This document shows positions 23,755 to 63,330 of a stretch of 64,000 bases of DNA, piece by piece (positions within the stretch are counted from its first letter, which is position 1; each line of letters begins with the position of its first letter). The notes under the pieces were generated by a model. It was not told where the DNA came from and searched no databases. It saw only the letters and a list, made by a program, of their open reading frames with translations. This DNA comes from Vitreoscilla filiformis (GTDB taxonomy: Bacteria; Pseudomonadota; Gammaproteobacteria; Burkholderiales; Burkholderiaceae_C), in the NCBI RefSeq assembly GCF_002222655.1, contig NZ_CP022423.1:496001-560000 (forward strand). The letters are read 5' to 3'. Both the position numbers and the translations under genes were made by a program.

Positions 23755-25275
23755 TCAGGCTTCGCGGCGCAGTGCCGGGAACAAGATCACGTCGCGGATG
23801 CTGGGCGAGTCGGTCAACAGCATCATCAGGCGGTCGATGCCGATGCCGCAGCCGCCCGTCGGGGGCATGCCGTATTCCAGGGCGCGGATGAAATCGGCGT
23901 CGTAGAACATCGCTTCATCGTCGCCGGCTTCTTTGTTGGCCACTTGGGCGTGGAAGCGGGCGGCTTGGTCTTCGGCGTCGTTCAGTTCCGAGAAACCGTT
24001 GCCGAACTCGCGCCCGGTGATGAACAGCTCGAAGCGCTCGGTGATGGTCGGGTTCTTGTCCGACGCACGCGCCAGCGGGCTGACTTCCACCGGGTAGTCG
24101 ATGATGAACGTCGGCTGCCAGAGCTTTTCTTCCACCGCCGCTTCAAACAAACCGAATTGCAACGCGGCCAGGCCCCAGTGCTTGGGCGGCTCTTCGCCCA
24201 GAGCGCACAGCTTGGCGTGGATCACGGCGGCGTCATCGGCTTCGGCTTCGGTGAGGCCGGCGTGGGCCACCAGCGAATCCCGCACCGACAGGCGGATGAA
24301 CGGCTCGTCCAGATGCACTTCCTTGCCGGCGTAGCTCACACGCGCCGAGCCCGTGGCTTGGCGGGCGGCGTGGCGCAGCAGGGCTTCGGTGAAGTCCATC
24401 AGATCATGGTGGTTCCAGTAGGCCGCGTAGAACTCCATCATCGTGAATTCGGGGTTGTGCCGAACGCTGATGCCTTCGTTGCGGAAGTTGCGGTTGATCT
24501 CGAACACGCGCTCAAAACCGCCCACCACCAGGCGCTTCAAATACAGCTCGGGCGCGATGCGCAGGAACATCTCTTGATCCAGCGCGTTGTGGTGCGTGAT
24601 GAAGGGCTTGGCGTTGGCGCCGCCGGGGATCGGGTGCAGCATCGGCGTTTCCACTTCCAGGAAACCGTGCTCGACCATGAAATTGCGGATCGAGGCCACG
24701 CCCTTGCTGCGGGCGATGAAACGCTTGCGCGCATCGTCGTCGGTCATCAGATCGACGTAGCGTTGGCGGTACTTTTGTTCCTGGTCGGTCATGCCGTGGA
24801 ACTTGTCCGGCAGCGGGCGCAGGCTCTTGGTGAGCAGCCGCACCGACGTGGCCTTGATCGACAGCTCGCCCGTCTTGGTCTTGAACAGCACGCCCTCGCA
24901 GCCGAGGATGTCGCCCAAATCCCAGTGCTTGAACGCGGCCAGCACCTCGGCGCCGACGTTGTCTTGGGTGACGTAGAGCTGGATGCGGCCAGTGGCGTCT
25001 TGCAGCGTGGCAAAACACGCTTTGCCCATCACGCGCTTCAACATCATGCGCCCAGCGACGCTGACCGTGACCGGATCGGTTTCCAGCTCCTCGTTGCTTT
25101 GCGCGTCGTGGGCGTGGTGCAAGTCGGCGGCGCGATGCTCAGGCTTGAAGTCGTTCGGGAACACGGCCTCGCCCGAGGCGGCCGCCTTGGCGCGCAGGGC
25201 GGCCAGTTTTTCGCGGCGCTCGGCGATGAGTTGGTTGTCGTCGGCGGCGGGGGCGGGGTGCGGGGCGTGGCTCAT
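23755..25275 (-). CDS. lysS: lysyl-tRNA synthetase, class II
   Basis: A 506-residue class IIb aminoacyl-tRNA synthetase. An N-terminal OB-fold anticodon-binding domain ([23 protein letters not shown]) is followed by motif 1 around [16 protein letters not shown], motif 2 [20 protein letters not shown], and motif 3 [14 protein letters not shown]. The start is taken as the ATG at 25275 (MSHAPHP); an upstream in-frame TTG would add eight residues but is unlikely. The gene lies upstream of groES on the same strand and is divergent from the polysaccharide cluster. Confidence 0.97.
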
Positions 25276-25310
25276 GTTGAATGGGTGAGGTGGGCTCAAA
25301 AGAACCTTTG

Positions 25311-25333
25311 ATTCTAAGGGCGCACCCTAAAAT
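25311..25333. promoter_or_regulatory. back-to-back -10 elements between lysS and wbpA
   Basis: The 101-bp divergent gap holds TAGAAT on the minus strand (25316-25311, toward lysS) and TAAAAT on the plus strand (25328-25333, toward wbpA). Neither has a strong -35, although TTTGAT at 25307-25312 is 15 nt upstream of the plus-strand box. Probably overlapping divergent promoters. Confidence 0.35.
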
Positions 25334-25376
25334 CAGCCCCCTTTTGCTTGCCCTTTGCTGGGGGCGCATTCCTGCT

Positions 25377-26672
25377 ATGAACCGCCAAATTGCCGTTGTC
25401 GGCCTGGGATATGTGGGCCTGCCGGTGGCCGTGGCCTTTGGCCGCCAACGCCGCATCATCGGTTTTGACATCAACGCTGCGCGCATCGCCGAGCTGCAAG
25501 CCGGCCACGATCGCACCGACGAGGTGACGGACGCCGACCTGGCCGCCACGCAGATCCTCTACACCCACCAGCTCGACGACCTGCGCACGGCGGATTTCTT
25601 CATCGTCGCCGTGCCGACGCCGGTGGACACGGCCAACAAACCCGATCTCTCGCCGCTGATCGCTGCTTCGCGCACCGTGGGCCAAGCGTTGAAGAAGGGG
25701 GACATCGTTGTCTATGAATCCACCGTTTACCCCGGCGCCACCGAGGAAGATTGCGTGCCGGTGCTGGAGCGCGTCTCCGGCCTGAAGCATGGTGTGGATT
25801 TCTTCTGCGGCTACAGCCCGGAGCGCATCAACCCCGGCGACAAAGAACACCGTTTCGAGACGATCAAAAAAGTCGTGTCCGGCTGTGATGCGGCAACGCT
25901 GGACGTGGTGGCCGAGGTTTACGCCAGCGTGGTGACGGCGGGTGTCCACAAAGCCGCGACCATCAAAGTGGCCGAAGCCGCCAAGGTGATCGAGAACACC
26001 CAGCGCGATCTGAACATCGCGCTGATGAACGAACTGTCGGTGGTGTTCGCCCGCATGGGCATCGACACCTCAGATGTGCTGGCCGCCGCCGGCACCAAGT
26101 GGAATTTCTTGCCCTTCCGACCGGGTTTGGTGGGTGGGCACTGCATCGGCGTCGATCCTTATTACCTGACCTACAAGGCCGAGCAGTTGGGGTACATCCC
26201 GCAGGTGATCTTGGCCGGGCGGCGCATCAACGACAACATGGGCCGCTACGTCGCCCGCAACACCATCAAGCGCATGTTGCAACAGGGTATGGATGTGCCG
26301 CGCTGCCGCGTCGGCGTGCTGGGCCTGACGTTCAAGGAAAACTGCCCGGACATCCGCAACTCCAAGGTGGTGGATTTGGTGCGCGAGCTGCAAGACCACG
26401 GCACCACGGTGGTGGTGATCGACCCGCACGCGGACGCCGAAGAAGTGCGGCACGAATACGGCATCGAGCTGGCCCGGTTGGAAGACCAAGCGCCGTTTGA
26501 CGCCTTGGTGGTGGCCGTGGCGCACCGCGAATACCGCGCCATGAGTGCCGCCGACCTGCGCGCCTGGGTGCGCACACCCGCCACCGGGGGCCAGCCCGTG
26601 GTGGCCGATGTGAAAGCGCTGTACCCCCGCGCCGAGCTGGAAGCCGCCGGCTTCAGCGTCTTCCGCCTGTGA
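25377..26672 (+). CDS. wbpA: UDP-N-acetyl-D-glucosamine 6-dehydrogenase (WbpA/TviB type)
   Basis: Oxidises UDP-GlcNAc twice with NAD+ to UDP-GlcNAcA, the first step toward diacetamido-uronic acids. The 431-residue protein has an N-terminal Rossmann fold (VVGLGYVGLPVA, residues 7-18), the substrate domain with catalytic Lys203 in EAAKVIENTQRDLN, and nucleophile Cys256 in VGGHCIGVDPYY. The C-terminal domain begins near VGVLGLTFKENCPDIRNSK. It opens the polysaccharide operon and is followed 17 nt later by a WbpB-like oxidase, as in the Pseudomonas aeruginosa O5 cluster. That neighbour makes the WbpA role more likely than a TviB role in Vi-antigen synthesis. Confidence 0.9.
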   Translation: MNRQIAVVGLGYVGLPVAVAFGRQRRIIGFDINAARIAELQAGHDRTDEVTDADLAATQILYTHQLDDLRTADFFIVAVPTPVDTANKPDLSPLIAASRTVGQALKKGDIVVYESTVYPGATEEDCVPVLERVSGLKHGVDFFCGYSPERINPGDKEHRFETIKKVVSGCDAATLDVVAEVYASVVTAGVHKAATIKVAEAAKVIENTQRDLNIALMNELSVVFARMGIDTSDVLAAAGTKWNFLPFRPGLVGGHCIGVDPYYLTYKAEQLGYIPQVILAGRRINDNMGRYVARNTIKRMLQQGMDVPRCRVGVLGLTFKENCPDIRNSKVVDLVRELQDHGTTVVVIDPHADAEEVRHEYGIELARLEDQAPFDALVVAVAHREYRAMSAADLRAWVRTPATGGQPVVADVKALYPRAELEAAGFSVFRL

Positions 26673-26683
26673 ACGTGTTCTGA

Positions 26684-28230
<1,547 letters not shown>

Positions 28231-28239
28231 GAGGCTGTC

Positions 28240-29499
28240 ATGTACATACAAGACGTTCATCTCACCAACGTGCGAGGATTTCAATCGCTGCACTTCTCGC
28301 TAGAGCGCAGTTCTAATGAATACGCAGGATGGACGGTTTTTGTGGGTGGAAATGGCTCCGGAAAAAGCACCCTCCTGAAAGCCATCGCTATGGCACAGTT
28401 ACCATCTGGAATATCCGGGATGCTCACCCCCTCATTTCATGAGTGGCTTCGGGAAGACTGTGGAGAAGCCATTATCAGCATGCATATCCTGCGAGTCGCA
28501 GATGATGATTTTTCTCTCGAAACGGGTTCAAAGGCCTCGTTGACTGATTCGAAGCGTGAGCGGCTTGGGTTTCGGGTGCATCAAAATCCAGCCATTTCTC
28601 CAACATGGGGAGGCACCTTCGATTTTTGGCAGGAAAGCTGGTTTGCTTGCGGGTATGGCCCATTTCGCCGGGTTTCAGGTGCAGCTCAAGACGTGCAAAA
28701 AGTCATGTCAGCCCCCGTAGCAGAACGATTTGTGACGATGTTTCAGGATTCGGCTTCTTTAGCTGAAGCCGATATCTGGTTGCGTCAACTTAATTACAAA
28801 AAGCTAGAAGGTCGGCCACAAGCGGCAGAAACATTGTCAGTTGTCATGGATGTTTTGCGTGACGAGTTTTTGCCCAACCAGATCACCGTGGATCGTGTGG
28901 ATTCTGAGGGACTATGGCTGAGAGATCGCAACGGTGCCCATCTTTCGTGGCATGACATGAGCGACGGCTACCGTTCGGCCCTGGCCATGCTGGCCGATAT
29001 CCTGCGGCACATGATCAATTTTTACGGCATCGACGGTTTGGTGGCCCGCAACGACCAAGGGCATCTCTACATCACCCGCAGCGGTGTGATTTTGATCGAC
29101 GAGGTCGATGCCCATTTGCATCCCTCATGGCAACGTCAAATCGGGTTTTGGCTTAAAAAACGGTTTCCGAAAGTTCAATTTCTCGTCACCAGCCACAGCC
29201 CTTTAGTTTGTCAAGCAGCCGATCCAAATGGCCTTTTTTGGTTACCCGATCCGGGCAGTGACGAAACACCCCGGGCGCTCACCCCTGACGAATACCAAAC
29301 AATCATTTCATCTCGGCCTGACACCATTTTGCGTTCGCCCGCCTTTGGTTTATCCAACACCCGCTCCGACCCTGTAGCCGAAAAACGGATCCGGTATGCC
29401 GAATTGAAAACCCGGCAACGGCGTCTGAACAATTTGTCGCCTGAAGAATCAACCGAATTGGCCGCACTGGCTCCGTTCATCAACTTGGACGAAGACTGA
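28240..29499 (+). CDS. ptuA: AAA/ABC-type ATPase, Septu PtuA-like anti-phage protein
   Basis: A 419-residue ATPase of the RecF/OLD-like AAA group. Walker A is GGNGSGKST (36-44), the ABC-type signature is DMSDGYRSAL (239-248), Walker B is VILIDEVD (283-290) followed by AHLHPSWQ, and the H-loop is TSHSPLV around His319. No membrane segments or Toprim domain are present, so it is not an OLD nuclease. The next gene, 6 nt away, encodes a HNH nuclease of the kind paired with PtuA in Septu systems, which is the main reason for the call. Codon use is clearly more AT-rich than the flanking wbp genes, especially in the first 600 nt. It is inserted between wbpD and wbpE. Confidence 0.75.
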   Translation: MYIQDVHLTNVRGFQSLHFSLERSSNEYAGWTVFVGGNGSGKSTLLKAIAMAQLPSGISGMLTPSFHEWLREDCGEAIISMHILRVADDDFSLETGSKASLTDSKRERLGFRVHQNPAISPTWGGTFDFWQESWFACGYGPFRRVSGAAQDVQKVMSAPVAERFVTMFQDSASLAEADIWLRQLNYKKLEGRPQAAETLSVVMDVLRDEFLPNQITVDRVDSEGLWLRDRNGAHLSWHDMSDGYRSALAMLADILRHMINFYGIDGLVARNDQGHLYITRSGVILIDEVDAHLHPSWQRQIGFWLKKRFPKVQFLVTSHSPLVCQAADPNGLFWLPDPGSDETPRALTPDEYQTIISSRPDTILRSPAFGLSNTRSDPVAEKRIRYAELKTRQRRLNNLSPEESTELAALAPFINLDED

Positions 29500-29505
29500 A
29501 ACGCC

Positions 29506-30264
29506 ATGCGCCGCATCCAGCGTCTGCCCCTGTCAGACACCGCCGCTCAGTACCTCGAAGACCGTCAAACTCACGCCAACGCCCAGCGCGAGCAAGGCAC
29601 GCTCGACATCGAAGCCCGTTGGAAAGACGCCCGCCAAACCGACAAGATTTCAGCTCCTCACCACAGTATTTTCAGCACACTGCGGCAGATGGCGGGACCT
29701 GCCCAACGGTGCATGTATTGCTCCGACTCCCTCGGCAGCGATATTGAGCACTTCTGGCCGAAAACGCCCTATCCGGAACAGGCGTTCCACTGGCCCAATT
29801 TGCTGCTGTGCTGCGCGCGCTGCGGCCGGCTCAAAGGCGACCGATTCCCACTGGACGCCAACGGGCACCCGTTGCTCATCAATCCCTCACGCGAGGATCC
29901 CTGGTGCCATTTGGACTTGGATCCCGAAGTTGGCACCTTGCTTCCCAAGGCCATTGGTGACGGTGCATCCGCAGCAGCGCTCAAAGGACAAGAAACCGTC
30001 CGCCTGTTTCAACTGACAGCAGAAGCGGTGCAAGATGGCCATCGGCGCACGTTCCGGCACCTGCAACGCTGCGTGGCCGACTTTCTGGCGGCACCGGACA
30101 CCCTCGACCATTTCTGGCAAAACCTCCAAGACCAAGACGTCCGAGGGTTGCTGCCTTGGTGTTGGGGTGACATTGGCCGAACGCTGGCCCCGTTCAGCGA
30201 ACTGCATCAAAACCACCCCGAAGTCTGGGCCGAAGTGTCCAACCGGTTGAATTCAGCGCTTTGA
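29506..30264 (+). CDS. ptuB: HNH endonuclease, Septu PtuB-like
   Basis: A 252-residue protein with a zinc-bound HNH domain in its first half. Cys69-x-x-Cys72 and Cys103-x-x-Cys106 frame IEHFWPKTPYP (His82) and WPNLL (Asn98), ending in RLKGDRFP. This layout (CxYC, IEHFWPK, WxNLL, CxxC, KGDRFP) is that of the HNH proteins found with PtuA in Septu and in some retron systems. The remaining 140 residues, starting INPSREDPW, belong to the same family and may recognise the ATPase or the target. No reverse transcriptase or retron RNA is visible nearby, so a stand-alone Septu type is more likely. The stop lies 12 nt before the wbpE ATG. Confidence 0.75.
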   Translation: MRRIQRLPLSDTAAQYLEDRQTHANAQREQGTLDIEARWKDARQTDKISAPHHSIFSTLRQMAGPAQRCMYCSDSLGSDIEHFWPKTPYPEQAFHWPNLLLCCARCGRLKGDRFPLDANGHPLLINPSREDPWCHLDLDPEVGTLLPKAIGDGASAAALKGQETVRLFQLTAEAVQDGHRRTFRHLQRCVADFLAAPDTLDHFWQNLQDQDVRGLLPWCWGDIGRTLAPFSELHQNHPEVWAEVSNRLNSAL

Positions 30265-30275
30265 TTCCACTTTCT

Positions 30276-31376
30276 ATGCAATTCATCGACCTGAAATCGC
30301 AATACACCGCCCTCAAACCCGAGATCGACGCCGCCCTCCAACGCGTGCTGGAGCACGGCCAATACATCATGGGCCCCGAGGTGGCGCAGCTCGAAGGCAA
30401 GCTGGCCGAATTCGTCGGCGTGCCGCATTGCATCACCGTGGCCAGCGGCACCGAGGCGCTGCTCATCGCGTTGATGGCGCTGGGCGTTCGGGCGGGCGAT
30501 GAGGTCATCACCTCGCCCTTCACCTTCGCGGCCACGGCGGAAGTGATTGCGCTGCTGGGCGCCGTGCCGGTGTTCGTTGATGTCGAGCCGGACACTTGCA
30601 ACCTCAACGCCGCGCTGATCGAAGCTGCGATCACACCGCGCACCAAAGCCATCATGCCGGTGAGTCTCTACGGCCAAGTGGCTGACATGGCGGAGATCAA
30701 CGCCATCGCCGCCCGCCACCAGCTGCCGGTGATTGAGGATGCGGCGCAGAGCTTCGGCGCCAGTTACCAGAGCGGACGCAGTTGCGGGCTGTCCACCTTC
30801 GGCGCGACGAGTTTTTTCCCCAGCAAACCCCTGGGTTGTTATGGCGACGGCGGCGCGCTGTTCACCGCCGACGCCGCGTTGGCCCAAGTGGCGCGCGAAA
30901 TCCGCGTGCATGGCCAAAGTGCGCGTTACACCCACACCCGCGTGGGCGTCGGTGGGCGCATGGACACGCTGCAATGTGCCGTGGTGCTGGCCAAGCTGCC
31001 GCGCTTTGAATGGGAACTGGCCCGCCGCGCCGCGCTGGGCGCCCGCTACGCCGCGCTGTTGGCCGAACTGAACGTGAGGTTGTTGGCGGTGCGACCTGAC
31101 CGGAATTGCGTCTGGGGCCAGTACACCGTTTTTGTCGAAGAGCGCGAACGGGTGCAAGCTGCCTTGAAGGACGCCGGCATCCCCACCGCCGTGCATTACC
31201 CGCGCCCGCTGCATCAACAAGCCGCTTATGCCGCGTTCGCCCCGGCGGGCGGCTGCCCGGTGGCCGAGCGCGTGGCGCAGGACGTGATGAGCCTGCCCAT
31301 GAGCCCCGATCTGCGCGAAGCCGACCAAGATCGTGTGGTGGCCGCCCTGGCCGCTGCTGTGGGCCACCGCGTTTGA
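30276..31376 (+). CDS. wbpE: UDP-3-keto-GlcNAcA aminotransferase, DegT family (WbpE type)
   Basis: PLP-dependent sugar aminotransferase that converts the 3-keto product of WbpB to the 3-amino sugar using glutamate. The 366-residue protein begins MQFIDLKSQYTALKPEI, the N-terminus typical of WbpE/WlbC. It has ASGTEAL at 56-62 for phosphate binding, Asp155 in PVIEDAAQSFGA, and the PLP lysine Lys184 in FFPSKPLGCYGDGG. The ATG at 30276 is used as start; an in-frame TTG at 30261 overlapping the ptuB stop is the alternative, and neither has a good Shine-Dalgarno. It is functionally tied to wbpA, wbpB and wbpD but separated from them by the two defence-like genes. Confidence 0.9.
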   Translation: MQFIDLKSQYTALKPEIDAALQRVLEHGQYIMGPEVAQLEGKLAEFVGVPHCITVASGTEALLIALMALGVRAGDEVITSPFTFAATAEVIALLGAVPVFVDVEPDTCNLNAALIEAAITPRTKAIMPVSLYGQVADMAEINAIAARHQLPVIEDAAQSFGASYQSGRSCGLSTFGATSFFPSKPLGCYGDGGALFTADAALAQVAREIRVHGQSARYTHTRVGVGGRMDTLQCAVVLAKLPRFEWELARRAALGARYAALLAELNVRLLAVRPDRNCVWGQYTVFVEERERVQAALKDAGIPTAVHYPRPLHQQAAYAAFAPAGGCPVAERVAQDVMSLPMSPDLREADQDRVVAALAAAVGHRV

Positions 31377-31389
31377 CGTCGGGCGCGAC

Positions 31390-31953
31390 ATGGCCTTGAT
31401 CGGCTACACGCTGGATGCCGCGCTGGCCCGCCTGCGCGCCCTGGCCTGGCGGGCCCTGGGCGTGCGCAGTGCGACGCACGCCAAAGCCCACGCCGGTAGC
31501 CGCGTGCGCTGCGCCTGGGGTCATGGCGAACTGGGTGCCGGGGCCGAGCTGTATCGCGATGTGCAGGTGCTGTGTACCGGCGCGGGGCGGTTTCACTTGG
31601 GGGCACGCTCCCACATCGCGCCGGGGGGCTATTTGCTGGTGGGCGCAAGCCGGTTGCACATCGGGGCCGGCGTGGCCATCGGGCCTCAGGTGGCGATTTT
31701 TTGTGAAGCCAACGGCGCCCGTGCGGGCGTGCCCTTCGTCGAACAGCATGTGTCCGCCCCGGTTCACATTGGCGACAACGTCTTTCTCGGTGCCCGTGTC
31801 ACCGTGCTGCCCGGCGCCGTCATCGAGCGTGATGTGGTGGTGGCTGCCCATGCGGTGGTGCGGGGTCGGTTGGCGTCGGGCTTCGTTTATGGCGGGGTGC
31901 CGGCGCGAGCGCTGCACCCGCTCCGACCGGCAGAAAGGCCCGATCCCTCATGA
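31390..31953 (+). CDS. hexapeptide-repeat acyltransferase
   Basis: A 187-residue left-handed beta-helix protein. After a short helical N-terminus (YTLDAALARLRALAWRALG) come irregular repeats, then the clear acyltransferase core HIGAGVAIGPQVAIF, VHIGDNVFLGARVTVLPG and ERDVVVAAHAVVRG, ending GFVYGGVPARAL. The pattern is that of colanic-acid/serine-type O-acetyltransferases. It probably acetylates a sugar or an amino-sugar precursor of the surface polysaccharide. It sits 13 nt after wbpE and its stop overlaps the next start (ATGA). The substrate is not determinable. Confidence 0.82.
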   Translation: MALIGYTLDAALARLRALAWRALGVRSATHAKAHAGSRVRCAWGHGELGAGAELYRDVQVLCTGAGRFHLGARSHIAPGGYLLVGASRLHIGAGVAIGPQVAIFCEANGARAGVPFVEQHVSAPVHIGDNVFLGARVTVLPGAVIERDVVVAAHAVVRGRLASGFVYGGVPARALHPLRPAERPDPS

Positions 31954-33182
31954 AACGCCACACCGTCAGCGCCCTGCACGGGTGTGACCTCGTCGGCACC
32001 CTGTGGGGCAGCAGCGGGGCCGCATTGGCGCTGCGCCAAGCCCTCGCCACCGCCTTGCACCGCCCGCCCGAAGCCCTGTGGTTGACCGGCGCTGGCCGTG
32101 GCGCCCTGCACGCCTTCGTGCGAGCCACCCAGCGCCAGCCCGATGACGAAGCGCTGTTGCCCGGCTACACCTGCGTCGTCGTGCCGAATGTGTTTTTGCA
32201 TGTCGGCGTGTCGGTGCGTTACGTGGACATCGCCGCCGAAGGCGTGAACCCCTCGCCCGACGCCTGGGCCCAGGCCATCACCCCCCGCACGCGCTGGGTG
32301 GTGTGGCCACACAACTTCGGGGTGCCCAGCGCCGGCATCGCCGCTTTGCGGGCGCGTTTCCCCCAGGTGCTTTTCATCGAGGACGCCGCCCACGCTTGGG
32401 GCTCGTGCCATGCGGACGGCTCGCCCGTCGGCACCCACGGGCATGCCGCGTTTTTCAGCTTTGAGTATTCGAAGTGCCTCACCACCGGCTTGGGCGGCGC
32501 GTTGCTGGTGAACGAGCCGGCGTTGCGCCCAGCGGTGGCCGAGGCGTTGGCGCCGCAGCACGCGCTGTCGCTCAAAACCCAGGTCAAAGTGCTGATGACC
32601 TTGGCCTATCACCTGATGTTGGCGACGTGGCCCAGCACGCTGGCGAGCGGATTGACGGCGTTGCTGCGTGCCCCGTCGCGGGCGCTTGGACTGGTGGCGG
32701 CCACCCGCCCCGCCGAGTTGAGCGGCCAAGCTCAGCCCGACTATCTGCAAGCCCTGCCCGACTGCCTGGCCCGCCTGGCGCTGCCGCAGTTGGCACGGAT
32801 GCCGCAGGTGCTGGCGCTGCGGCGCCAACAAGCACGCCACTACACCGAGGCGCTGGCGGGTTCGCCCTGGCTGACCCCGCTTGGTGCCGCCGAACCGGCC
32901 ACGCTGCTGCGCTTCCCGCTGCGGGTGGCGCATCCGGCGCAGCGTGAGGCCCTGCACGCCGGCCTGCGGGCGCTGGACATCGAACCGGGCATCTGGTTTG
33001 ACGACGTGGTTCACCCAGCCGGCAGCCTGCGCCACGGCTACACCGAGGGCGATTGTCCGAACGGCGAGCGCCTGGCGCGCTGCATCGTCAACCTGCCGCT
33101 GGGGTTGCACGCCCGCTTGAGCCAGCGCCAGTGGCAAGGTCTGCGCCGCCTGGCCCAAACGCCCCCCGAGATCACCGGATGA
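31950..33182 (+). CDS. DegT/DnrJ/EryC1/StrS-family aminotransferase
   Basis: A 410-residue PLP enzyme of the sugar aminotransferase family, second of three in this cluster. Seen are the family's GYTCVVVPNVFLHVGV segment, Asp145 in FIEDAAHAWGS, and the PLP-lysine Lys175 in FFSFEYSKCLTTGLGG. The C-terminal half is only loosely like classical members (LGLVAATRPAELSGQ, Leu/Ala-rich), which puts it in a divergent subgroup often found in polysaccharide clusters. The amino sugar it makes is unknown; no matching dehydratase or epimerase is in the window. Coupled on both sides by ATGA overlaps. Confidence 0.8.
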   Translation: MKRHTVSALHGCDLVGTLWGSSGAALALRQALATALHRPPEALWLTGAGRGALHAFVRATQRQPDDEALLPGYTCVVVPNVFLHVGVSVRYVDIAAEGVNPSPDAWAQAITPRTRWVVWPHNFGVPSAGIAALRARFPQVLFIEDAAHAWGSCHADGSPVGTHGHAAFFSFEYSKCLTTGLGGALLVNEPALRPAVAEALAPQHALSLKTQVKVLMTLAYHLMLATWPSTLASGLTALLRAPSRALGLVAATRPAELSGQAQPDYLQALPDCLARLALPQLARMPQVLALRRQQARHYTEALAGSPWLTPLGAAEPATLLRFPLRVAHPAQREALHAGLRALDIEPGIWFDDVVHPAGSLRHGYTEGDCPNGERLARCIVNLPLGLHARLSQRQWQGLRRLAQTPPEITG

Positions 33183-34519
33183 GCGCTTGGCGTCACGATT
33201 TGGCCCGCCTGGCCAGTGCGGCGGTGTTGGCCCAACTGGTGCCGCTGTTGGTGCTGCCTTGGCTCACCCGCACCCTGCCGGCTGAGGACATTGGCCGCTG
33301 GACGCTGTTTGCCGCGCTGGCCTCCAATTTCGCCATCGTCGCTTGCCTGCGCTACGAATACGCCTTGGTGCTGCCGCGCAGCCTCGCCGGGGCGCGTTCG
33401 GTGCTGGGGCTGTGTTTGACCCTGGCGCTGGCTTGGGGGCTGGGTTTGGCGGGTGCCCTGTTGGCGCTGGCGGCACTGTGGCCGTGGGTGGAAGCGCTCT
33501 GCGGCACGTCGGCCACGCTGGTGCGCTGGGCTTCGCTGGGGGGGGTGTTGGGGTGGCTGCCGCTGGCTGTCACCTTGGCCGGGGTGATTCAAGCGCTCAC
33601 GCTGTGGCACAACCGGGGGGGGCGTTTTGCGGTCATCGGCCAAGCGCGGGTGGCCAATCCGGCGATGGCCGCAGCGGTGCAAGCGCTTGGCGCCGTGAGC
33701 GGCCCCGCCGGGGGTGGCGCCCACGTTCTCAGCGGCGGGCAGGTCGCCGGCCAAGCCCTTGGCGCCGCGTGGCTGGGCTGGAAAGCGCGGGCCGATGTGC
33801 GCCGGCTGCACCGGCTGGCCCGCTGGCGCTGGCAGCGTCGCCGCTGGTGGGTGCTGGCGCGGCGCTATCGGCAATTTCCGCTGGTGAACACGCCCCATGC
33901 GTTCATCAACGGCCTGCAAGACACGGTGGCGCTGGCCCTGGTGCTGTCCAGCGCCGGCCCAGCGGCGGCAGGTTTTTTCGGTTTGATGGTGCGGGTGGTG
34001 ATGGCACCGACCAGCTTGATCGGCGGCGCCCTGTCCGAAGTGCTGCTCGGACGGGCCGCGCAAACGTGGCGCGAAGGCGGCGATTTGGTGCCAACGATCC
34101 ACCGCAGCGTGGCCATTTTGAGTGCGTTCGCGGTGCCGTCCGCCCTGGTGCTGGCGCTGGCTGGGCCGACCTTGTTTGCCAGCCTGTTCGGTGAGCCCTG
34201 GCGCGAGGCGGGAGAATGGGCGCGTTGGCTCGCCCCCTGCATGGCCGGGCGCATGATCGTCGGCCCGCTCACCGTGCTCCCCATGATTTTGGAGCGCCAA
34301 GCCACCGCGCTGGCCTTCAGCTTGAGCGGCAATGTGCTGTATGTGCTGGCGCTGTGGGTCGGGTTGGCGCAAGGCGGTTTGGCATGGGGGTGCGCCGCCG
34401 TGTCACTGGTGATGAGTGGGTATTTCCTCGCCTTCGGGCTGTGGTTGGTGCGGGCGGCGCGGGTCGCCCATGCGGATCGGCAGCGGGCAGGCGGGGTGTT
34501 GCAGGAGAGTCGAACATGA
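33179..34519 (+). CDS. oligosaccharide flippase, Wzx-like
   Basis: A 446-residue, very hydrophobic protein with about 12 predicted membrane helices, for example ASAAVLAQLVPLLVLPWLTR near the N-terminus and GNVLYVLALWVGLAQGGLAW near the C-terminus. LRYEYALVLPR after helix 2 is a recurring motif in the polysaccharide biosynthesis/Wzx flippase family of the MOP superfamily. It would turn the lipid-linked oligosaccharide repeat across the inner membrane. Start at ATG 33179, overlapping the aminotransferase stop. The product is rich in Ala/Leu/Trp/Gly, as expected at this GC. No separate Wzy polymerase was recognised. Confidence 0.8.
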   Translation: MSAWRHDLARLASAAVLAQLVPLLVLPWLTRTLPAEDIGRWTLFAALASNFAIVACLRYEYALVLPRSLAGARSVLGLCLTLALAWGLGLAGALLALAALWPWVEALCGTSATLVRWASLGGVLGWLPLAVTLAGVIQALTLWHNRGGRFAVIGQARVANPAMAAAVQALGAVSGPAGGGAHVLSGGQVAGQALGAAWLGWKARADVRRLHRLARWRWQRRRWWVLARRYRQFPLVNTPHAFINGLQDTVALALVLSSAGPAAAGFFGLMVRVVMAPTSLIGGALSEVLLGRAAQTWREGGDLVPTIHRSVAILSAFAVPSALVLALAGPTLFASLFGEPWREAGEWARWLAPCMAGRMIVGPLTVLPMILERQATALAFSLSGNVLYVLALWVGLAQGGLAWGCAAVSLVMSGYFLAFGLWLVRAARVAHADRQRAGGVLQESRT

Positions 34520-35724
34520 GTCGCCACAAGGGTAAGTTCATCCCGTCGCAGCCGCTGGCGGCCAGTGCGGCACTGCGCACGGCCACGGGGCCGCGCTCGG
34601 TCGGCGCCACGGTGCGCCCCGCCGCGCTGCGCCTGGTGCTGATCGGCGACGCGGAAAGCCCGCATTTGCTCAAATGGGCCCGCGCCTTGGCGCCGCGTCT
34701 CGATGTGTGGGTGATTTCCAGCCGAGGTTTTGCACCAGCGTTTGACGCTTTTTTGCCCGCTGAACGCCGTCTGGCCCTGGGCACCCGCCCCCGCTTTGAA
34801 GGCGGCAACATCGAACTGTTGCGCGCCTTGCCGGAGGTGCTGCGTTTCTTGCAAGCGGTGCGGCCCGATTGGATCGCCCCGCATTACCTCAGCTCACACG
34901 GCACGCTGGCGTGGTTGGCGGTGCGTTTTGGCGGGGTCAAAGCGCGCATCGCTGGTTCGGCGTGGGGCTCGGACATCCTCGTCGCCCCGCAACGCAGCCG
35001 GATGATGCGCTGGGTCACCACCCGGGTGCTGGGCGCCTGCACCCTGACCACCAGCGACTCCCAACACATGGCCCGCCGCATGAAAGAGCTGGGCGCCGCC
35101 GAGGTGCTGACCTTCCCCTTCGGCCTGGAAACCATGCCCCCGCTGCCCAACCGCAAAGACGAAGCACTGTTCTTCGCCAACCGAGGGCTGGAGCCGATTT
35201 ACGCCCCGCAACGGGTGCTCGATGTGTTTGCCGCCCTCAGCGCCGGTTGGCCCGAAGCCCGGCTGGTGGTGGCCAACGACGGCTCACTTCGCGCCGAGCT
35301 GGAAGCCCGGGTGCAAGCCGACCCGGCTTTGGCGGGCCGGGTGCAGTTCGTCGGTCGGCTGGATGCGACCACGCAAGCCACTTGGTACAGCCGTGCTCGC
35401 TGGTATCTGAGTTTGCCGCAGAGTGATTCGGTGTCCGTGTCGGTGCTGGAAGCGATGGCGCACGGCGCCATCCCCATCCTCTCGGACGTGCCCGCCAACC
35501 GCGAACTGGTGAGCGACGGCCACAACGGCCTGATCCTCAGCGCCAGCGAACGCCCCACCCGCGAACGGCTCGGGCCGTTGCAGGCACGGGCCAAAGCGGT
35601 GTCGGCGGAGCTGCACCAGTGGGTCGGGCAACATGCGCTGTTTCCGGCCAGTGTCCAGGTTTATGTGCAACGTCTGGTCGAATTGACGCCCCGCCCCCCC
35701 GTTGGGGCCCCCGCTGACGCATGA
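34516..35724 (+). CDS. glycosyltransferase, GT4-like
   Basis: A 402-residue GT-B fold glycosyltransferase. The N-terminal domain begins after a 35-residue basic leader with LRLVLIGDAESPHLLKWARA, then IAPHYLSSHGTLAWLAVRF and AGSAWGSDIL. The donor domain carries SDSVSVSVLEAMAHGAIPIL and SDVPANRELVSDGHNGLIL, the E-x7-E type nucleotide-sugar site of retaining family 4 enzymes. No signal peptide or membrane anchor is seen; it should work at the cytoplasmic face. Coupled to the flippase by an ATGA overlap and to the next glycosyltransferase by 4 nt. Donor and acceptor unknown. Confidence 0.83.
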   Translation: MSRHKGKFIPSQPLAASAALRTATGPRSVGATVRPAALRLVLIGDAESPHLLKWARALAPRLDVWVISSRGFAPAFDAFLPAERRLALGTRPRFEGGNIELLRALPEVLRFLQAVRPDWIAPHYLSSHGTLAWLAVRFGGVKARIAGSAWGSDILVAPQRSRMMRWVTTRVLGACTLTTSDSQHMARRMKELGAAEVLTFPFGLETMPPLPNRKDEALFFANRGLEPIYAPQRVLDVFAALSAGWPEARLVVANDGSLRAELEARVQADPALAGRVQFVGRLDATTQATWYSRARWYLSLPQSDSVSVSVLEAMAHGAIPILSDVPANRELVSDGHNGLILSASERPTRERLGPLQARAKAVSAELHQWVGQHALFPASVQVYVQRLVELTPRPPVGAPADA

Positions 35725-36968
35725 ACATCCTCTACCTCAACCATTACGCTGGCAGCCCCGCGCTGGGCATGGAATACCGCCCTTACTACCTGGCGCGTGA
35801 ATGGGTGCGCATGGGGCATGCGGTGCGCATGGTGGCGGCGGATTTTTCCCACGTCCGCGCCCGCCAACCCCAGACCGGACGCGAACGCATCGACGGCATC
35901 GACTACCTCTGGTTGCCCACCCCGCGCTACCAAGGCAACGGCTTGGGCCGGGTGCGCAACATCTGGGCTTACTGTCGCCAAGTTTGGGCCCGGGCCGATG
36001 CGCTGATCGCCGAGCAGCGCCCGGACGTGGTCATCGCCTCCAGCACCTACCCGATGGACATTTGGGTGGCCCGCCGCATCGCCCGCAAGGCCGGTGCCGT
36101 GCTGGTGTTCGAGGTGCATGATTTGTGGCCGCTGTCGCCGATTGAGCTGTCGGGCATGTCGCCGAACCACCCGTTTGCGCGGCTGTGCGCGTGGGCGGAA
36201 AAAACCGCCTACCGGGACGCGGATGTGGTCATCTCCATGCTGCCCAAGGTGCAGGATTACATGGCGTCACGCGGGCTGGATGTGCGCAAACTTACCATCG
36301 TGCCCAACGGCATCGCCCCCGAAGATTGGCAGAACGAACCCGCCCCGCTGCGCCAAGACGTGGCCGCGCTGGTGGCCGTGGCGCGGGCGCGTGGTCATGT
36401 CGTGGTGGGCTACGCGGGTTCGATGGGTTTACCGAACGCGCTGGATCACTTGCTGGACGCCGCTGCATTGCTGCGCCAACAGCCCATCACCTTCGTGCTG
36501 GTGGGCGATGGGCACGAGCGCCGGCGCTTGGTGCAGCGCCTTCAGGACGAGCAGCTCGACCGGGTGCATTGGTTCGCGCCGATCCCCAAACCGCAAATCC
36601 CTAGCTTTCTGGCCGAGTTGGACGTGGCCTACATCGGCTGGCAGCGCGTGCCGATCTACCGTTTTGGCATCGCACCCAACAAACTGATGGATTACATGAT
36701 GGCCGGTTGTGCGGTGCTGCACGCCGTCGAAGCCGGTAACGATCCGGTGGTGGAAAGCGGTGGCGGCCTGAGTGTGGCGCCCGAATCCCCGCAAGCCATC
36801 GCCGATGGCCTGCTGCTGCTGGCCGAAATGCCACACGCCGAGCGCGAACAGCTCGGGCAAGCCGGTCGCCAATTCGTCGAAGCTCACCACACGTACCCGG
36901 TGCTGGCGCGGCGTTTTTTAGCGGCGTGCCAACGCGCCCGCGAAGGGATGATGCACCGTGCCGCATGA
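35721..36968 (+). CDS. glycosyltransferase family 4 (WbuB-like)
   Basis: A 415-residue GT-B enzyme. The opening MNILYLNHYAGSPALGMEYR and the middle VFEVHDLWPLSPIELSG, WAEKTAYRDADVVISMLP and IVPNGIAPEDW are characteristic of the WbuB group of O-antigen transferases (often GlcNAc, FucNAc or ManNAc-type donors). The donor domain continues with VVGYAGSMGLPNALDHLLDA and ends KLMDYMMAGCAVLHAVEAGN. It overlaps the preceding gene by 4 nt and the next by 11 nt. It probably adds an N-acetylated sugar to the lipid-linked repeat; that is inference from the subgroup. Confidence 0.86.
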   Translation: MNILYLNHYAGSPALGMEYRPYYLAREWVRMGHAVRMVAADFSHVRARQPQTGRERIDGIDYLWLPTPRYQGNGLGRVRNIWAYCRQVWARADALIAEQRPDVVIASSTYPMDIWVARRIARKAGAVLVFEVHDLWPLSPIELSGMSPNHPFARLCAWAEKTAYRDADVVISMLPKVQDYMASRGLDVRKLTIVPNGIAPEDWQNEPAPLRQDVAALVAVARARGHVVVGYAGSMGLPNALDHLLDAAALLRQQPITFVLVGDGHERRRLVQRLQDEQLDRVHWFAPIPKPQIPSFLAELDVAYIGWQRVPIYRFGIAPNKLMDYMMAGCAVLHAVEAGNDPVVESGGGLSVAPESPQAIADGLLLLAEMPHAEREQLGQAGRQFVEAHHTYPVLARRFLAACQRAREGMMHRAA

Positions 36969-37671
36969 TCCTCTTCGGCAAGAACTGCAACAAGTGGTGC
37001 AGCGCTACGCGCACCGCACCCACACCTTGCCCGCTGACCGCTACAGCCTGTTGCGCCCCGAAGTCTGGCAAATGCTGCACGAGCGCCAACGGGCCATCTG
37101 CCAAGGTTTGGCCGCCCGCCAGTGGGAACCCGCATCGCTGCACCTGACCGAAGTGGGCTGCGGCGCTGGTGGTAATTTGCTGGATTTTTTGCGCCTGGGT
37201 TGCCGCCCTGAGCACCTGACCGGCTGCGAGCTGCTGCCCGAACGCCTGGCGCAAGCGCGTGAGCTGCTGCCCCCTGCGGTGCGCTTGGAAGCCGGGGACG
37301 CCAGCGCCGTGGCCATCCCGCCTGGCAGCCAAGACATCGTGTTGCAAGCCACGGTGTTTTCCTCGCTGTTGGACGATGCCGTGCAGCAGCACTTGGCGAA
37401 CGCCATGTGGCGCTGGCTCAAGCCTGGCGGCGCGGTGCTCTGGTACGACTTCACCGTCAACAACCCGCGCAACCCCGACGTGCGCGGCGTGCCACTGGCC
37501 CGGGTGCACCAGCTCTTTCCCCAAGCCGTGACGTGGGACGCCCACCGCTTGACCCTGGCCCCACCGCTGGCGCGGCGGCTGTGCGCACTGCACCCGAGCC
37601 TCTACACCGTGTTCAACGCCGTGCCGTGGCTGCGCACGCACCGGTTGATTTGGATTCAGAAAGCGGATTGA
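36958..37671 (+). CDS. class I SAM-dependent methyltransferase
   Basis: A 237-residue soluble methyltransferase. Motif I is LTEVGCGAGGNLLDF around residues 63-77; an acidic residue ends strand 2 (GCELLPERL), GDASAVAIPPGSQDIVLQ follows and LKPGGAVLWYDF closes the core. It starts at a GTG 11 nt inside the preceding glycosyltransferase gene, so coupling is tight. In this context it probably methylates a sugar of the polysaccharide or terminates chain growth, but protein or small-molecule targets cannot be excluded. Confidence 0.8.
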   Translation: MPHDPLRQELQQVVQRYAHRTHTLPADRYSLLRPEVWQMLHERQRAICQGLAARQWEPASLHLTEVGCGAGGNLLDFLRLGCRPEHLTGCELLPERLAQARELLPPAVRLEAGDASAVAIPPGSQDIVLQATVFSSLLDDAVQQHLANAMWRWLKPGGAVLWYDFTVNNPRNPDVRGVPLARVHQLFPQAVTWDAHRLTLAPPLARRLCALHPSLYTVFNAVPWLRTHRLIWIQKAD

Positions 37672-37677
37672 CACCCC

Positions 37678-38862
37678 ATGAACACCCCCTCCTCCGAAAA
37701 CCGACCGCCCTTCCTCCCCTTTGCCCTGCCGGAAATTGGCGAAGAAGAAATCGCCGAAGTGGTGGATGCCCTGCGCTCAGGCTGGGTCACCACCGGCCCC
37801 AAAACCCGCCGCTTTGAGCAGGATTTTTCGGCCTTCCTGGGCGACCCGGGGTTGCATGCCATCGCCGTGAATTCGGCCACCGCAGGGCTGCACCTGGCGC
37901 TGGAAGCCGTGGGCGTGGGGCCGGGCGATGAGGTCATCACCACCACCCACACCTTCACCGCCAGCGCCGAAGTGGCCCGCTACCTGGGCGCCGATGTGAA
38001 GCTGGTGGACATCGACCCGGCCACGCTGTGCATCGATCCAGCGGCCATCGAGGCGGCCATCACCCCACGCACCAAGTGCATCGTGCCGGTGCATTTCGGC
38101 GGTTTGGCAGCGGACATGACGGCCATCCTCGCCATCGCCCAAAAGCATGGCCTGAAGGTGGTGGAAGACGCCGCCCACGCCCTGCCAAGCACCCACGCCG
38201 GCCGCCTCATCGGCACGCTGGACAGCGACGCCACGGTGTTCAGCTTCTACGCCAACAAAACCATCACCACCGGCGAGGGCGGTATGTTGGTGACGCGGGA
38301 CGCCGCACTGGCCCAACGCGCCAAAGTGATGCGCCTGCACGGCATCAACCGCGATGCGTTTGACCGCTTCACCGCCAAGGTGCCGAGCTGGTATTACGAA
38401 ATCGTCGCGCCGGGTTTCAAGTACAACCTGACGGACATCGCGTCCGCCCTCGGGATTCACCAGTTGCAACGGGCGCATGCGTTCCAGCGCCAGCGCGCCG
38501 CCCTGGCCGCGCACTACAACGAATTGCTGGCCGATCTGCCGCTGATCCTGCCGCCGCAGCCGGCACCGGGCGAGCTGCACTCGTGGCACCTGTACGTGGT
38601 GCGTTTGGCCGACGGCGCTTGCCTCCACCGCGATGCTTTCATCGAAGCGCTGTTTGAGGCGGGCATCGGGTGCAGCGTCCACTACATCCCGCTGCACCAG
38701 CAGCCCTACTGGCGCGAGCGCTACCAGCTCCAGGCCGAGGACTTCCCGCACAGCCAGCGTGCCTTCGAGCGCACCGCCACGCTGCCGCTCTACACGCGCA
38801 TGACGTTGGAGGATGTGGAGCGCGTCGCCCTGGCCGTGCGCCGGGCGCTGTGTGTCGGATGA
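37678..38862 (+). CDS. DegT-family UDP-4-keto-sugar aminotransferase (PglE/ArnB-like)
   Basis: A 394-residue PLP enzyme, third DegT member of the cluster. It shows [14 protein letters not shown] near residue 34, [10 protein letters not shown] for phosphate binding, Asp164 in [11 protein letters not shown], and the PLP lysine Lys194 in [16 protein letters not shown]. The C-terminal [18 protein letters not shown] is shared with PglE, PseC and ArnB-type enzymes that aminate UDP-4-keto sugars. The next gene encodes a PglC-like sugar transferase, and PglE-PglC pairs build bacillosamine-like primers. The required dehydratase and a dedicated acetyltransferase are not obvious here, though the acyltransferase at 31390 could serve. 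Confidence 0.87.
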
Positions 38863-39449
38863 AACGCGCATTTGACGTGCTCGCGTCGGCCCTGGGGCTG
38901 GCGCTGCTGTGGCTGCCGGGGTTGGTGGTGGCGGCGCTGATTCGCTGGGACTCACCCGGGCCGGTATTTTTTCGTCAAGAACGCGTGGGGCGATTCGGGC
39001 GACCGTTTCGCATCCACAAGTTCCGCACCATGCGGGTGAACGCCGAACAGGCGGGCCAACTCACCGTCGGCGCCGATGCGCGCATCACCCGCATCGGGGC
39101 GTTTTTGCGCGCCCATCGTTTGGACGAGCTGCCTCAGCTCATCGATGTGTTCCTGGGCGACATGAGTTTGGTCGGCCCGCGCCCCGAAGTGCCGCGGTAC
39201 GTCGCCCATTACCCGGCGGCGCTGCGGGACGTGGTGCTGTCGGTGCGACCGGGCATCACCGATCCGGCTTCGCTGCGCTTTCGCAACGAGTCCGAACAAT
39301 TGGCGGCGGCAGCGGATCCGGAGCGCGAATACATCGAGGTCATCTTGCCGGCCAAACTCGCTTGCGCTGCCGACTACGCCCAGCACGCCTCCTTCGTCAC
39401 CGATGTGGGCGTGCTGCTGCGCACCCTCAAGGTGTTGGTGACACGTTGA
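38859..39449 (+). CDS. initiating sugar-1-phosphate transferase, PglC-like
   Basis: A 196-residue monotopic phosphoglycosyl transferase. One reentrant hydrophobic segment (residues 6-30, [20 protein letters not shown]) is followed by [40 protein letters not shown] and [14 protein letters not shown], the catalytic core of the bacterial sugar transferase family. It lacks the multi-pass N-terminal region of WcaJ/WbaP, so it is the minimal PglC form. It moves a phosphosugar from UDP-sugar to undecaprenyl phosphate, starting each repeat unit. Last gene of the cluster; its 3' end overlaps the convergent broken efflux gene by 23 bp. Confidence 0.9.
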
Positions 39450-49342: not shown

Positions 49343-50728
49343 TCAGTCTGCTTGCTTGCGCAAAAAGGCTGGAATCTCGATCTCTTCCATGCCATTTGAG
49401 CTGAGTGCCTCCACCTTGGCTGCCGCTTGCATCCGCCCCGTGCGCCACACGCTGGGCACATGCGGCTCATGGTGGACGGGCGCTGCTGGCGGCGGCACCA
49501 TCCCCGCAGGGGCTGCGGCATGGTGCGGCGAAGCATGCACCGATGGGTGCGGCACGTGGTGATGTGGCGCGTGCGTTCCCGGGTAAGGCAGGTTGTCCGT
49601 GCCGGTGCGCATCTGCTGCTGGGGATGCATCTGCGCCGGCATGGCATGTGCCACATGGGTCGGATGCACAGCCGCATGTTGCACCGGCTGGGGTTGCGGC
49701 ACGTTCACCTGCGGCTGCACGGGCGGCATGGCAGGCTGGCTCTGCACCACGGTCAGCGGCGCTTGGGCGCGTTTACCGCTGGTCAGGCCAGTCGCGATCA
49801 CGGTGACGCGCAACTGGTCATTGAGCGACTCCTCGTAGGCCGTGCCGTAGATGATGTGCGCGTCCGGTGCCGCGTAGCGGCCAATGGTGGCCATGGCGCT
49901 GCGCACTTCGGACAGCCGGAAGTTGGCCCGCGAGGCCGCAATCAGCACCAACACCCCCCGGGCGCCGGACAGGTCAATGCCTTCCAGCAGCTTGGAGGTC
50001 ACCGCCGCTTCAGCCGCCTTCGATGCGCGATCTGGGCCTGCGGCCATGGCGGTGCCCATCATGGCTTTGCCGGGCTCGCTCATCACCGTCTTGACGTCTT
50101 CGAAGTCCACGTTCACCAGACCGGGAATGTGGATGATGTCGCTGATGCCGCCGACGGCGTTCTTCAGCACATCGTTGGCGTGGGCGAAGGCTTCGTCTTG
50201 GGTGACATCGTCGCCGAGGACTTCCAGCAACTTGTCATTGAGCACCACAATCAACGAATCGACGTTGGCCTCCAGCTCCGTCACCCCGGCTTCGGCTTGC
50301 TTGCAACGGCGCCCACCTTCGAACGAGAACGGCTTGGTGACCACACCCACCGTGAGAATGCCCATCTCCTTGGCCAAGCGAGCAATCACCGGCGCGGCCC
50401 CCGTGCCGGTGCCGCCGCCCATGCCCGCCGTGACGAACAGCATGTTCGCCCCCTGGATGGCCTCACGAATGCGCCCCTCGGCTTGCTCCGCCGACTGGCG
50501 TCCAACTTCGGGCCGGGAGCCTGCACCCAAGCCGGTCTCGCCCAATTGCACCAAGCTCTTGGCGCGGCTGCGGTTCAGAGCTTGCGCATCGGTATTGGCA
50601 CAGATGAATTCCACGCCCTGCACGCCTTGGGCAATCATGTGCTCCACGGCGTTGCCACCGCCACCGCCAACGCCGATCACCTTGATCTGCGTCCCCCGGT
50701 CAAAGTCCTCAATCATTTCAATTGGCAT
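49343..50728 (-). CDS. ftsZ: cell division protein FtsZ with His/Pro-rich linker
   Basis: Tubulin-like GTPase that forms the Z-ring. 461 residues; about 80 longer than E. coli FtsZ. The core is complete: KVIGVGGGGGNAVEHM, GTPase motif GGGTGTG (104-110), T7 loop around NVDFEDVKTVM. The C-terminal peptide EEIEIPAFLRKQAD (448-461) binds FtsA. Between residues 322 and 427 lies a disordered linker rich in Pro, Gln and especially His (16 of about 100). The ATG at 50728 has an AGGAG site 7 nt upstream. Last division gene of the cluster; 87 nt after ftsA. Confidence 0.98.
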   Translation of the reverse strand: MPIEMIEDFDRGTQIKVIGVGGGGGNAVEHMIAQGVQGVEFICANTDAQALNRSRAKSLVQLGETGLGAGSRPEVGRQSAEQAEGRIREAIQGANMLFVTAGMGGGTGTGAAPVIARLAKEMGILTVGVVTKPFSFEGGRRCKQAEAGVTELEANVDSLIVVLNDKLLEVLGDDVTQDEAFAHANDVLKNAVGGISDIIHIPGLVNVDFEDVKTVMSEPGKAMMGTAMAAGPDRASKAAEAAVTSKLLEGIDLSGARGVLVLIAASRANFRLSEVRSAMATIGRYAAPDAHIIYGTAYEESLNDQLRVTVIATGLTSGKRAQAPLTVVQSQPAMPPVQPQVNVPQPQPVQHAAVHPTHVAHAMPAQMHPQQQMRTGTDNLPYPGTHAPHHHVPHPSVHASPHHAAAPAGMVPPPAAPVHHEPHVPSVWRTGRMQAAAKVEALSSNGMEEIEIPAFLRKQAD

Positions 50729-50815
50729 TTGCAAGCTCCTGTTGCCGACGTGTACGTCGACGCGCCGGCGTCATTATTTCATTCCTGACCCTGTGCTTGG
50801 AGCGTTTGTCGATGG

Positions 50816-52048: not shown

Positions 52049-52057
52049 CTTTGTCCT

Positions 52058-52861
52058 TCACTGCGCCGCTTGGCTTGGCGCCGTTGCTTTCAGGTGCAGT
52101 GCAAACCCATCCATGTGCCGCAAATCGGCACGATCCCAGTTTCGGCCCGCCCATTGGGCCCCGGGGCGCTGAATGGCGTGCGCAAAACGCTCCAGCCGCG
52201 CCAGCACGTCTTCCGCGCTGCCACGGCCCAGCTCGATCACTTCGCCTCGCTTGAGCTCGATTTCCCAGGAACCCCGGGGGCTCAAACTCACACGCACCAC
52301 CTCCATGCCAAAGGGCCGCAGCAGCGTGAGCAGCTTGCCGTGCATGTCAATGACTTGCCCGAGCTGGCTGCGCAAGCCTTCCAATTCGGGCAGATTGTCC
52401 ACGTCTCCGAGGTTGGCCTCGAAAATTTCCCCGAAACGATTCACCAACCGATCCGTCACCCCCTGCTCGCGCCAGATGGCCACGGGTTGGTGTTCCTCAA
52501 TGTGAACCACCAGCCGATCCGGCCAAACCCGCCGCACACGGGCCTGGCGCACCCACGCGACTTTTTCCAAAGCCTCGCGGGTTTCGGCCAAATCCAGGGT
52601 GAAGAAATTCCCCGGCAAGTTGGCAAACACCCCGGCGCGCAAATCTTCAACGCTGCAACGCTTGAGTTCGCCTTCAACCAACACTTGCTCAATGGCAAAC
52701 ACCGGCAGGTGAATGAAACGATACACGCCATACACCACCAAGATGGCCAGTGGCAGTGACAACAACCACCAACCGCCACGCCGCTGCGACCACTGGCGCA
52801 CGCGCCGCCACAGCGGCCCCAGCGGGGCCACCATCGATGCACGACGGGACGGGCTCGCCAT
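52058..52861 (-). CDS. ftsQ: cell division protein FtsQ
   Basis: Bitopic divisome protein that links FtsB/FtsL to the cytokinetic ring. 267 residues from ATG 52861: a basic cytoplasmic tail (residues 1-30, RRVRQWSQRRGG), one membrane helix (LLSLPLAILVVYGVYRF), then a POTRA domain (FAIEQVLVEGELKRCSVEDL) and the beta domain with WPDRLVVHIEEHQPVA. An earlier in-frame GTG at 52927 would overlap ddl by nearly 60 nt and is less likely. Starts 8 nt after ddl. Confidence 0.96.
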   Translation of the reverse strand: MASPSRRASMVAPLGPLWRRVRQWSQRRGGWWLLSLPLAILVVYGVYRFIHLPVFAIEQVLVEGELKRCSVEDLRAGVFANLPGNFFTLDLAETREALEKVAWVRQARVRRVWPDRLVVHIEEHQPVAIWREQGVTDRLVNRFGEIFEANLGDVDNLPELEGLRSQLGQVIDMHGKLLTLLRPFGMEVVRVSLSPRGSWEIELKRGEVIELGRGSAEDVLARLERFAHAIQRPGAQWAGRNWDRADLRHMDGFALHLKATAPSQAAQ

Positions 52862-52869
52862 CACCCGTT

Positions 52870-59189: not shown

Positions 59190-59211
59190 GGCGTTGGCGT
59201 TCCTTCGTGTC

Positions 59212-63324: not shown

Positions 63325-63330
63325 GGTCAA

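Follow-up and report, generated by a model that had tools for sequence, protein, structure and literature searches.

The 64-kb window, the whole stretch of DNA analysed here, carries ptuA and ptuB side by side within a polysaccharide operon. With a probability of about 0.78, the two genes form an intact Septu system that was acquired into the junction between wbpD and wbpE, a site repeatedly filled in relatives with unrelated defence or toxin-antitoxin (TA)-type cassettes. Septu itself is an ordinary, known family. What may be new is a small operon-internal gap that is repeatedly filled with unrelated defence-type cassettes: a gap of a few bp between two probably co-transcribed enzyme genes is filled in six or seven lineage-by-cargo cases. 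Because related bacteria repeatedly fill the same gap with defence or TA-like genes, such genes may settle in this sugar operon again and again.

The Septu pair and its host operon

We take the dehydrogenase and oxidoreductase genes at the start of the cluster to be wbpA and wbpB, and the acyltransferase and aminotransferase genes at the edges of the insertion to be wbpD and wbpE (Table 1). All genes lie on the plus strand, and the successive gaps from wbpD through ptuA and ptuB to wbpE are 9, 6 and 11 nt. The ORF list places no gene beyond ptuA and ptuB in the insertion, and the two are adjacent on the same strand in the Septu arrangement. The gene cluster is probably a single transcript. Two promoter-like sites occur in 25200-31500 against 1.3 expected, one of them within ptuA, and the sole plus-strand terminator-like site in this interval falls within wbpE. 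The pair would lack a promoter of its own and would ride on the operon transcript. Elsewhere in the window, 49343-63330 holds genes that by eye range from ftsZ- to mur-type, an ordinary division and cell-wall cluster.

Table 1. Features of the window (by position) and cargo at two operon junctions in relatives (by genome)
Feature	Position or genomes	Strand	Evidence or detail
Polysaccharide cluster, nucleotide-sugar dehydrogenase to end of PF02397 sugar transferase	25377..39449
Nucleotide-sugar dehydrogenase, first gene of operon	25377..26672	+	PF03721/PF00984/PF03720; NCBIfam TviB model 534 bits, under cut-off 592
Gfo/Idh/MocA oxidoreductase	26690..27640	+	PF01408, PF02894
Hexapeptide acyltransferase, left edge of insertion	27637..28230	+	PF00132; junction comparison
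2045-bp insertion, wbpD stop to wbpE start codon	28231..30275	+	Junction gap comparison
ptuA, Septu ATPase	28240..29499	+	419 aa; PADLOC PDLC00269, PDB matches, GC3 0.53
ptuB, Septu HNH nuclease	29506..30264	+	252 aa; H82, N98 invariant (23 aligned sequences)
DegT/DnrJ/EryC1 aminotransferase, right edge of insertion	30276..31376	+	PF01041, 403 bits
Hexapeptide transferase, DegT protein, flippase-like protein, two glycosyltransferases, methyltransferase, DegT aminotransferase, PF02397 sugar transferase	31393..39449	+
wbpD-wbpE: Septu	G000, G1515	operon
wbpD-wbpE: PDC-M56A + B	G714, G1514, G1517, G1516, G469, G1510	operon
wbpD-wbpE: PDC-M56AB plus Septu	G771	operon
wbpD-wbpE: zeta-toxin-like + small upstream ORF	G703, G438, G556	operon	PF06414 32.8 bits, cut-off 22.3
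wbpD-wbpE: DinD	G592	operon	PADLOC PDC-S13, 392 bits
wbpD-wbpE: RHH, PIN and SLFN_AlbA_2 proteins	G525	operon
wbpD-wbpE: small unmatched ORF + PIN_3-like domain in frame with WbpE	G357	operon	21.4 bits, cut-off 27
wbpD-wbpE, non-defence: glutathione S-transferase (GST)	G005 (L070:4407-5138)	antisense
wbpD-wbpE, non-defence: S41 protease (antisense) + two-component pair	G009
wbpD-wbpE, non-defence: LacI regulator, xylose-isomerase-like (TIM) barrel	G573
Oxidoreductase-wbpD: MazE-like + PIN	G1512, G448
Oxidoreductase-wbpD: PIN	G490
Oxidoreductase-wbpD: ParD + ParE	G478	antisense
Oxidoreductase-wbpD: RmrA-like + PIN	G438		RmrA-like 188 bits; PIN match sub-threshold
Oxidoreductase-wbpD: Fic/PDC-S24	G703	antisense	578 bits
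Oxidoreductase-wbpD: ABC export pair	G632, G700		One first gene PF01061, rest by eye
Oxidoreductase-wbpD: unassigned ORF	G009

The first-pass annotation had described an ATPase and an HNH protein by their motifs, and both ORFs, their 6-nt spacing and all motifs were confirmed. PtuA carries GGNGSGKST, DMSDGYRSAL and VILIDEVD, with Walker A at residues 36-44 and Walker B at residues 283-290, and PtuB carries CMYC, IEHFWPK, WPNLL, CARC and KGDRFP. PtuA residues K42, D287 and E288 of the Walker A and B motifs are invariant across 22 sequences, and the catalytic H and N of PtuB are likewise invariant (Table 1). Judged from the residues, the catalytic motifs of both proteins are intact. The remark that the ATPase gene is more AT-rich than its neighbours also holds: GC3 is 0.53 in ptuA (GC 0.516) and 0.68 in ptuB (GC 0.605), compared with 0.79-0.84 in wbpA, wbpB, wbpD and wbpE.

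Profile, sequence and fold matches support the identification of the pair as Septu. PtuA matches PADLOC PDLC00269 at 460 bits over residues 1-412 of 419, PtuB matches PDLC00317 at 142 bits, and homologous PtuA/PtuB pairs also occur in other genomes; together these exceed a chance resemblance. PtuA has sequence matches to Septu and retron PtuA entries in the PDB, and PtuB matches the fold of 8eea_G at 18% sequence identity. The Septu assignment proposed at first pass is thereby supported, although two NCBI models score below their cut-offs: TIGR02646 matches PtuB at 41.7 bits (cut-off 52.15) and NF041761 gives 53.8 bits (cut-off 150). NF041760 (retron Ec78 PtuA) gives 118.8 bits, below its curated cut-off of 500.

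Three other identities were considered. Type IV restriction (PADLOC mREase_IV, 190 and 83 bits) scores under the best Septu models and spans PtuA 131-389, and was set aside. A degenerate HNH nuclease was suggested by G107, in place of N, after the fourth Cys, and was set aside because the same C-G occurs in most of the aligned clade and in solved retron PtuBs. A retron effector was rejected since wbpD and wbpE are the immediate neighbours of ptuAB, which leaves no reverse transcriptase at the junction. The mREase_IV models that match PtuA and PtuB are PDLC03660 and PDLC03661, and this label may cover a Septu-like pair.

Acquisition and lineages of PtuA

Comparison with relatives indicates that ptuAB is inserted at the junction and is not ancestral. 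A close PtuA is found in 0 of 15 other genomes of the same genus; in four of them the ATPase matches are distant and partial (best E 1.3e-15). In a set of 60 genomes that includes the window's own, the sole further PtuA match above 50% identity near full length comes from a different genus (G027). A threshold of E <= 1e-60 gives PtuA in 7/399 genomes of the family, 5/399 of the order, 2/369 of the class and 3/398 of the phylum, counts that each include the window's own genome and come from draws that partly share genomes. The wbpD-wbpE junction is empty (-19 to 12 bp) in 11 of 13 same-genus cases from 12 other genomes, and three same-genus genomes lack a close wbpE. The two filled junctions hold an antisense GST gene (G005) and an antisense S41 protease with a two-component pair (G009). 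An ancestral operon component is rejected on the same-genus absence of a close PtuA and on the empty junctions. Together with the deviating GC3 of ptuA, these results do not fit the refuting case named at first pass, a pair that every relative has at this site with like codon use.

No vehicle for the acquisition was recognised among the candidates examined. A mobile-element scar was rejected because the repeats are imperfect and lie away from the edges; the best is a 23-nt pair, 83% identical, in wbpD and wbpE. The 64-kb window contains no tRNA genes. Plasmid carriage was rejected on six plasmid records at E <= 1e-40 (best identity 38.6%), and phage carriage on four phage records at E <= 1e-10 with coverage of at most 32%. 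A contig scan with very general patterns gave at least four distant or partial loci among the matches listed.

Three genomes have PtuA at the wbpD-wbpE junction (G000, G771 and G1515). A tree of 36 rows selected from 130 rejects these as one clade (p-AU 7e-61), which indicates three PtuA lineages at the junction and speaks against a single acquisition; rows of unspecified context lie between them. A 22-row clade (support 99/97) contains all three junction PtuAs, and six rows of known other context are in the remaining 14. This split of clade against context has a Fisher p of 0.012, calculated on the three junction rows and six rows located elsewhere, the rows of known context. One Septu sub-lineage may be resident at the junction, given that 0 of 6 rows known from elsewhere fall in the 22-row clade. 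Against this, the 36-row tree leaves out L068 and L069, which are distant and also located elsewhere, and in a 130-row quick tree the placement of G000 plus P0002 is ambiguous.

The genes wbpD and wbpE were not found in nine other PtuA loci (L061-L069), of which L065 is only 3 kb and L063 and L067 are close to a contig end. Some PtuA loci (L062, L064, L066 and L067) presumably adjoin restriction-modification (RM) genes, and we take the gene after ptuB in L062, L066 and L067 to be the mod methyltransferase of type III restriction systems. At L069:7334-16843 (G329), PtuAB occurs with a type IIG RM enzyme (672 bits), an HKD+Snf2-like protein (206 bits) and a DUF3800-like gene. One flank of this island is a wbpA-like gene (24% identity), and the genes of the other flank are, we presume, rfaE/rfaD-like. 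We read L069 as another LPS-type locus that carries a defence island.

Cargo of the junction in relatives

Orthologues of wbpE were collected from 96 of 324 family genomes at E <= 1e-120 and from further genome sets. Inspection covered 118 places in 112 genomes, and the upstream wbpD was present in 114 of them (109 genomes). Four places were left out: wbpD was not found at G488, at G458 or at one of the two places in G556, and G507 is at a contig end; G458 has a different acetyltransferase-like gene in the wbpD position. The junction gaps are bimodal. Ninety-six of 114 are closed (-19 to 107 bp, median 7), 18 are filled (767-5393 bp) and none lies between. The first-pass statement that wbpD and wbpE are usually adjacent is therefore correct, and the comparison across relatives that it called for places the 2045-bp gap of the window among the 18 exceptions. 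The ptuAB pair accounts for 3 of the 114. Co-option of the PtuA-like ATPase and HNH protein into polysaccharide regulation, in place of phage defence, is suggested by position; this rarity, the other contexts of related pairs and the conservation of both catalytic motif sets argue against it and make it very improbable.

Defence or TA-type cargo occupies 15 of the 18 filled junctions. These come from six genera and hold six types of cargo, of which that of G357 is weak because its PIN_3 match is under the cut-off. One PDC-M56A protein (447 bits), two PDC-M56B proteins (77 and 87 bits) and one zeta-like protein were profile-scanned, and the remaining proteins were assigned by tblastn. The PDC models represent candidate defences, and the TA-like pairs are putative defences only. 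Neither PADLOC nor NCBIfam gives a match for the zeta-like protein, and its small upstream ORF matches nothing. No paper on PDC-M56, or on defence genes between wbpD and wbpE, was found in titles and abstract openings of the open-licence literature.

Other features of the cargo were also recorded. In G357 (L187:8536 onward) the PIN_3-like domain runs in frame into WbpE, giving an open frame of 529 aa that is possibly a toxin-enzyme fusion. A 90-aa ORF, a membrane protein by eye and without a Pfam match, is placed between PDC-M56 and wbpE or ptuA (L107:8689-8961 and L060:8637-8909). The GST insertion of G005 illustrates that unrelated genes also enter the junction.

The PDC-M56 genomes all belong to one genus, as do the three zeta-like genomes, and each group may represent one event. 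Merging like cargo per genus gives seven defence/TA-type events (six without G357) and three others. Under assumed base rates of 0.1 and 0.3, at least 7/10 such events would arise by chance with probabilities of 9e-6 and 0.011, and at least 6/10 with probabilities of 1.5e-4 and 0.047. These values weigh against a neutral account in which mobile defence and TA modules land anywhere, the operon is permissive, and TA-like cargo resists deletion and stabilises the operon. The existence of non-defence cargo and the neighbouring junction favour that account, which we hold to be a real possibility, somewhat short of an even chance.

At this neighbouring junction, 110 of 114 loci have the Gfo/Idh/MocA gene upstream of wbpD; the distance is at most 300 bp in 102 of them and 496-1790 bp in the other 8. 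Three of the other four loci have little upstream sequence; the fourth, G1512, was added from a longer stretch, which brings the filled junctions to 9/111. Six of the nine (L168, L164, L188, L132, L087 and L153) hold defence/TA-type genes (MazE/PIN, PIN, ParDE, RmrA/PIN-like and Fic), 2/6 in antisense. With this junction of the same operon as the comparison, filling does not differ significantly from the 18/114 at wbpD-wbpE (Fisher p 0.10), which suggests that the pattern is perhaps tied to the operon more than to a single gap.

All 15 defence/TA-type insertions at wbpD-wbpE are on the operon strand. Codirection and a cargo that varies while its type recurs are the pattern expected if co-transcription with receptor or barrier polysaccharide genes were itself favoured, because surface and intracellular phage resistance would join as one transferable unit. 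Of the 13 genomes of one related genus, 11 have the cluster, and 9 of these 11 have such cargo in the operon; the PtuAB and type IIG RM enzyme of L069, flanked by a wbpA-like gene and presumed rfaE/rfaD-like genes, point the same way. Codirection is also expected, however, if wbpE expression suffers from antisense insertions. Moreover, 96 of the 114 junctions have no cargo, and we know of no receptor role for this polysaccharide. We regard selection for the coupling as unlikely. The first-pass proposal that phage-receptor synthesis may be coupled to intracellular defence becomes a better question through the recurrent insertions, which do not demonstrate coupling.

Proposed function and comparison with known systems

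For the preferred reading, an acquired Septu pair at a repeatedly filled site, the junction probably tolerates insertions because same-strand cargo keeps wbpE expressed. Conserved wbpD and wbpE arms could move cargo between strains by homologous recombination. A stronger version, in which the wbp-type operon would be a dedicated, integrase-free immunity locus whose cassettes are swapped through these arms, expressed on the polysaccharide transcript and co-inherited with phage-receptor chemistry, is doubtful. Three of the 18 insertions are non-defence, and defence and TA genes are mobile everywhere; both points weigh against the preferred reading. Should the filling rate truly exceed that of other operons, the junction would offer a concrete case in which co-expression and co-inheritance of surface (receptor) and intracellular phage resistance can be tested, and an inexpensive site at which to seek new defence systems in this bacterial family.

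By homology, the pair may form an infection-triggered nuclease complex. PtuA, an ABC-type ATPase, would hold PtuB, an HNH nuclease, in complex until phage infection, after which PtuB would cut nucleic acid and phage growth would stop. According to PMC13096335, Septu EcB88 protects E. coli against phages, requires the PtuA Walker residues K43 and D316 and PtuB H75 and N91, and cuts the variable loop of tRNA-Tyr during T6 infection. In PMC11555353, retron-Eco7 PtuAB causes tRNA-Tyr to be lost, and nicked DNA is the reported target of PtuAB from another E. coli Septu.

The pair resembles the E. coli Septu systems (8eea; EcB88, PMC13096335) at low identity, 18% for PtuB to 8eea_G, and differs in lying inside a polysaccharide operon. 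The PtuAB effectors of type I-A retrons (Ec78/Eco7, Ec83) are homologous ATPase and HNH proteins, but here no third gene, hence no reverse transcriptase, lies between wbpD and wbpE. Core defence hotspots such as those of Pseudomonas aeruginosa (PMC10250203) are likewise reported as chromosomal positions rich in defence systems, whereas the site here is a gap of ~7 bp within an operon that holds small cassettes. The PADLOC candidates PDC-M56 and PDC-S13 occupy the same junction in related genomes; they are different proteins from ptuAB, with at most the ATPase class in common, and are candidate systems only.
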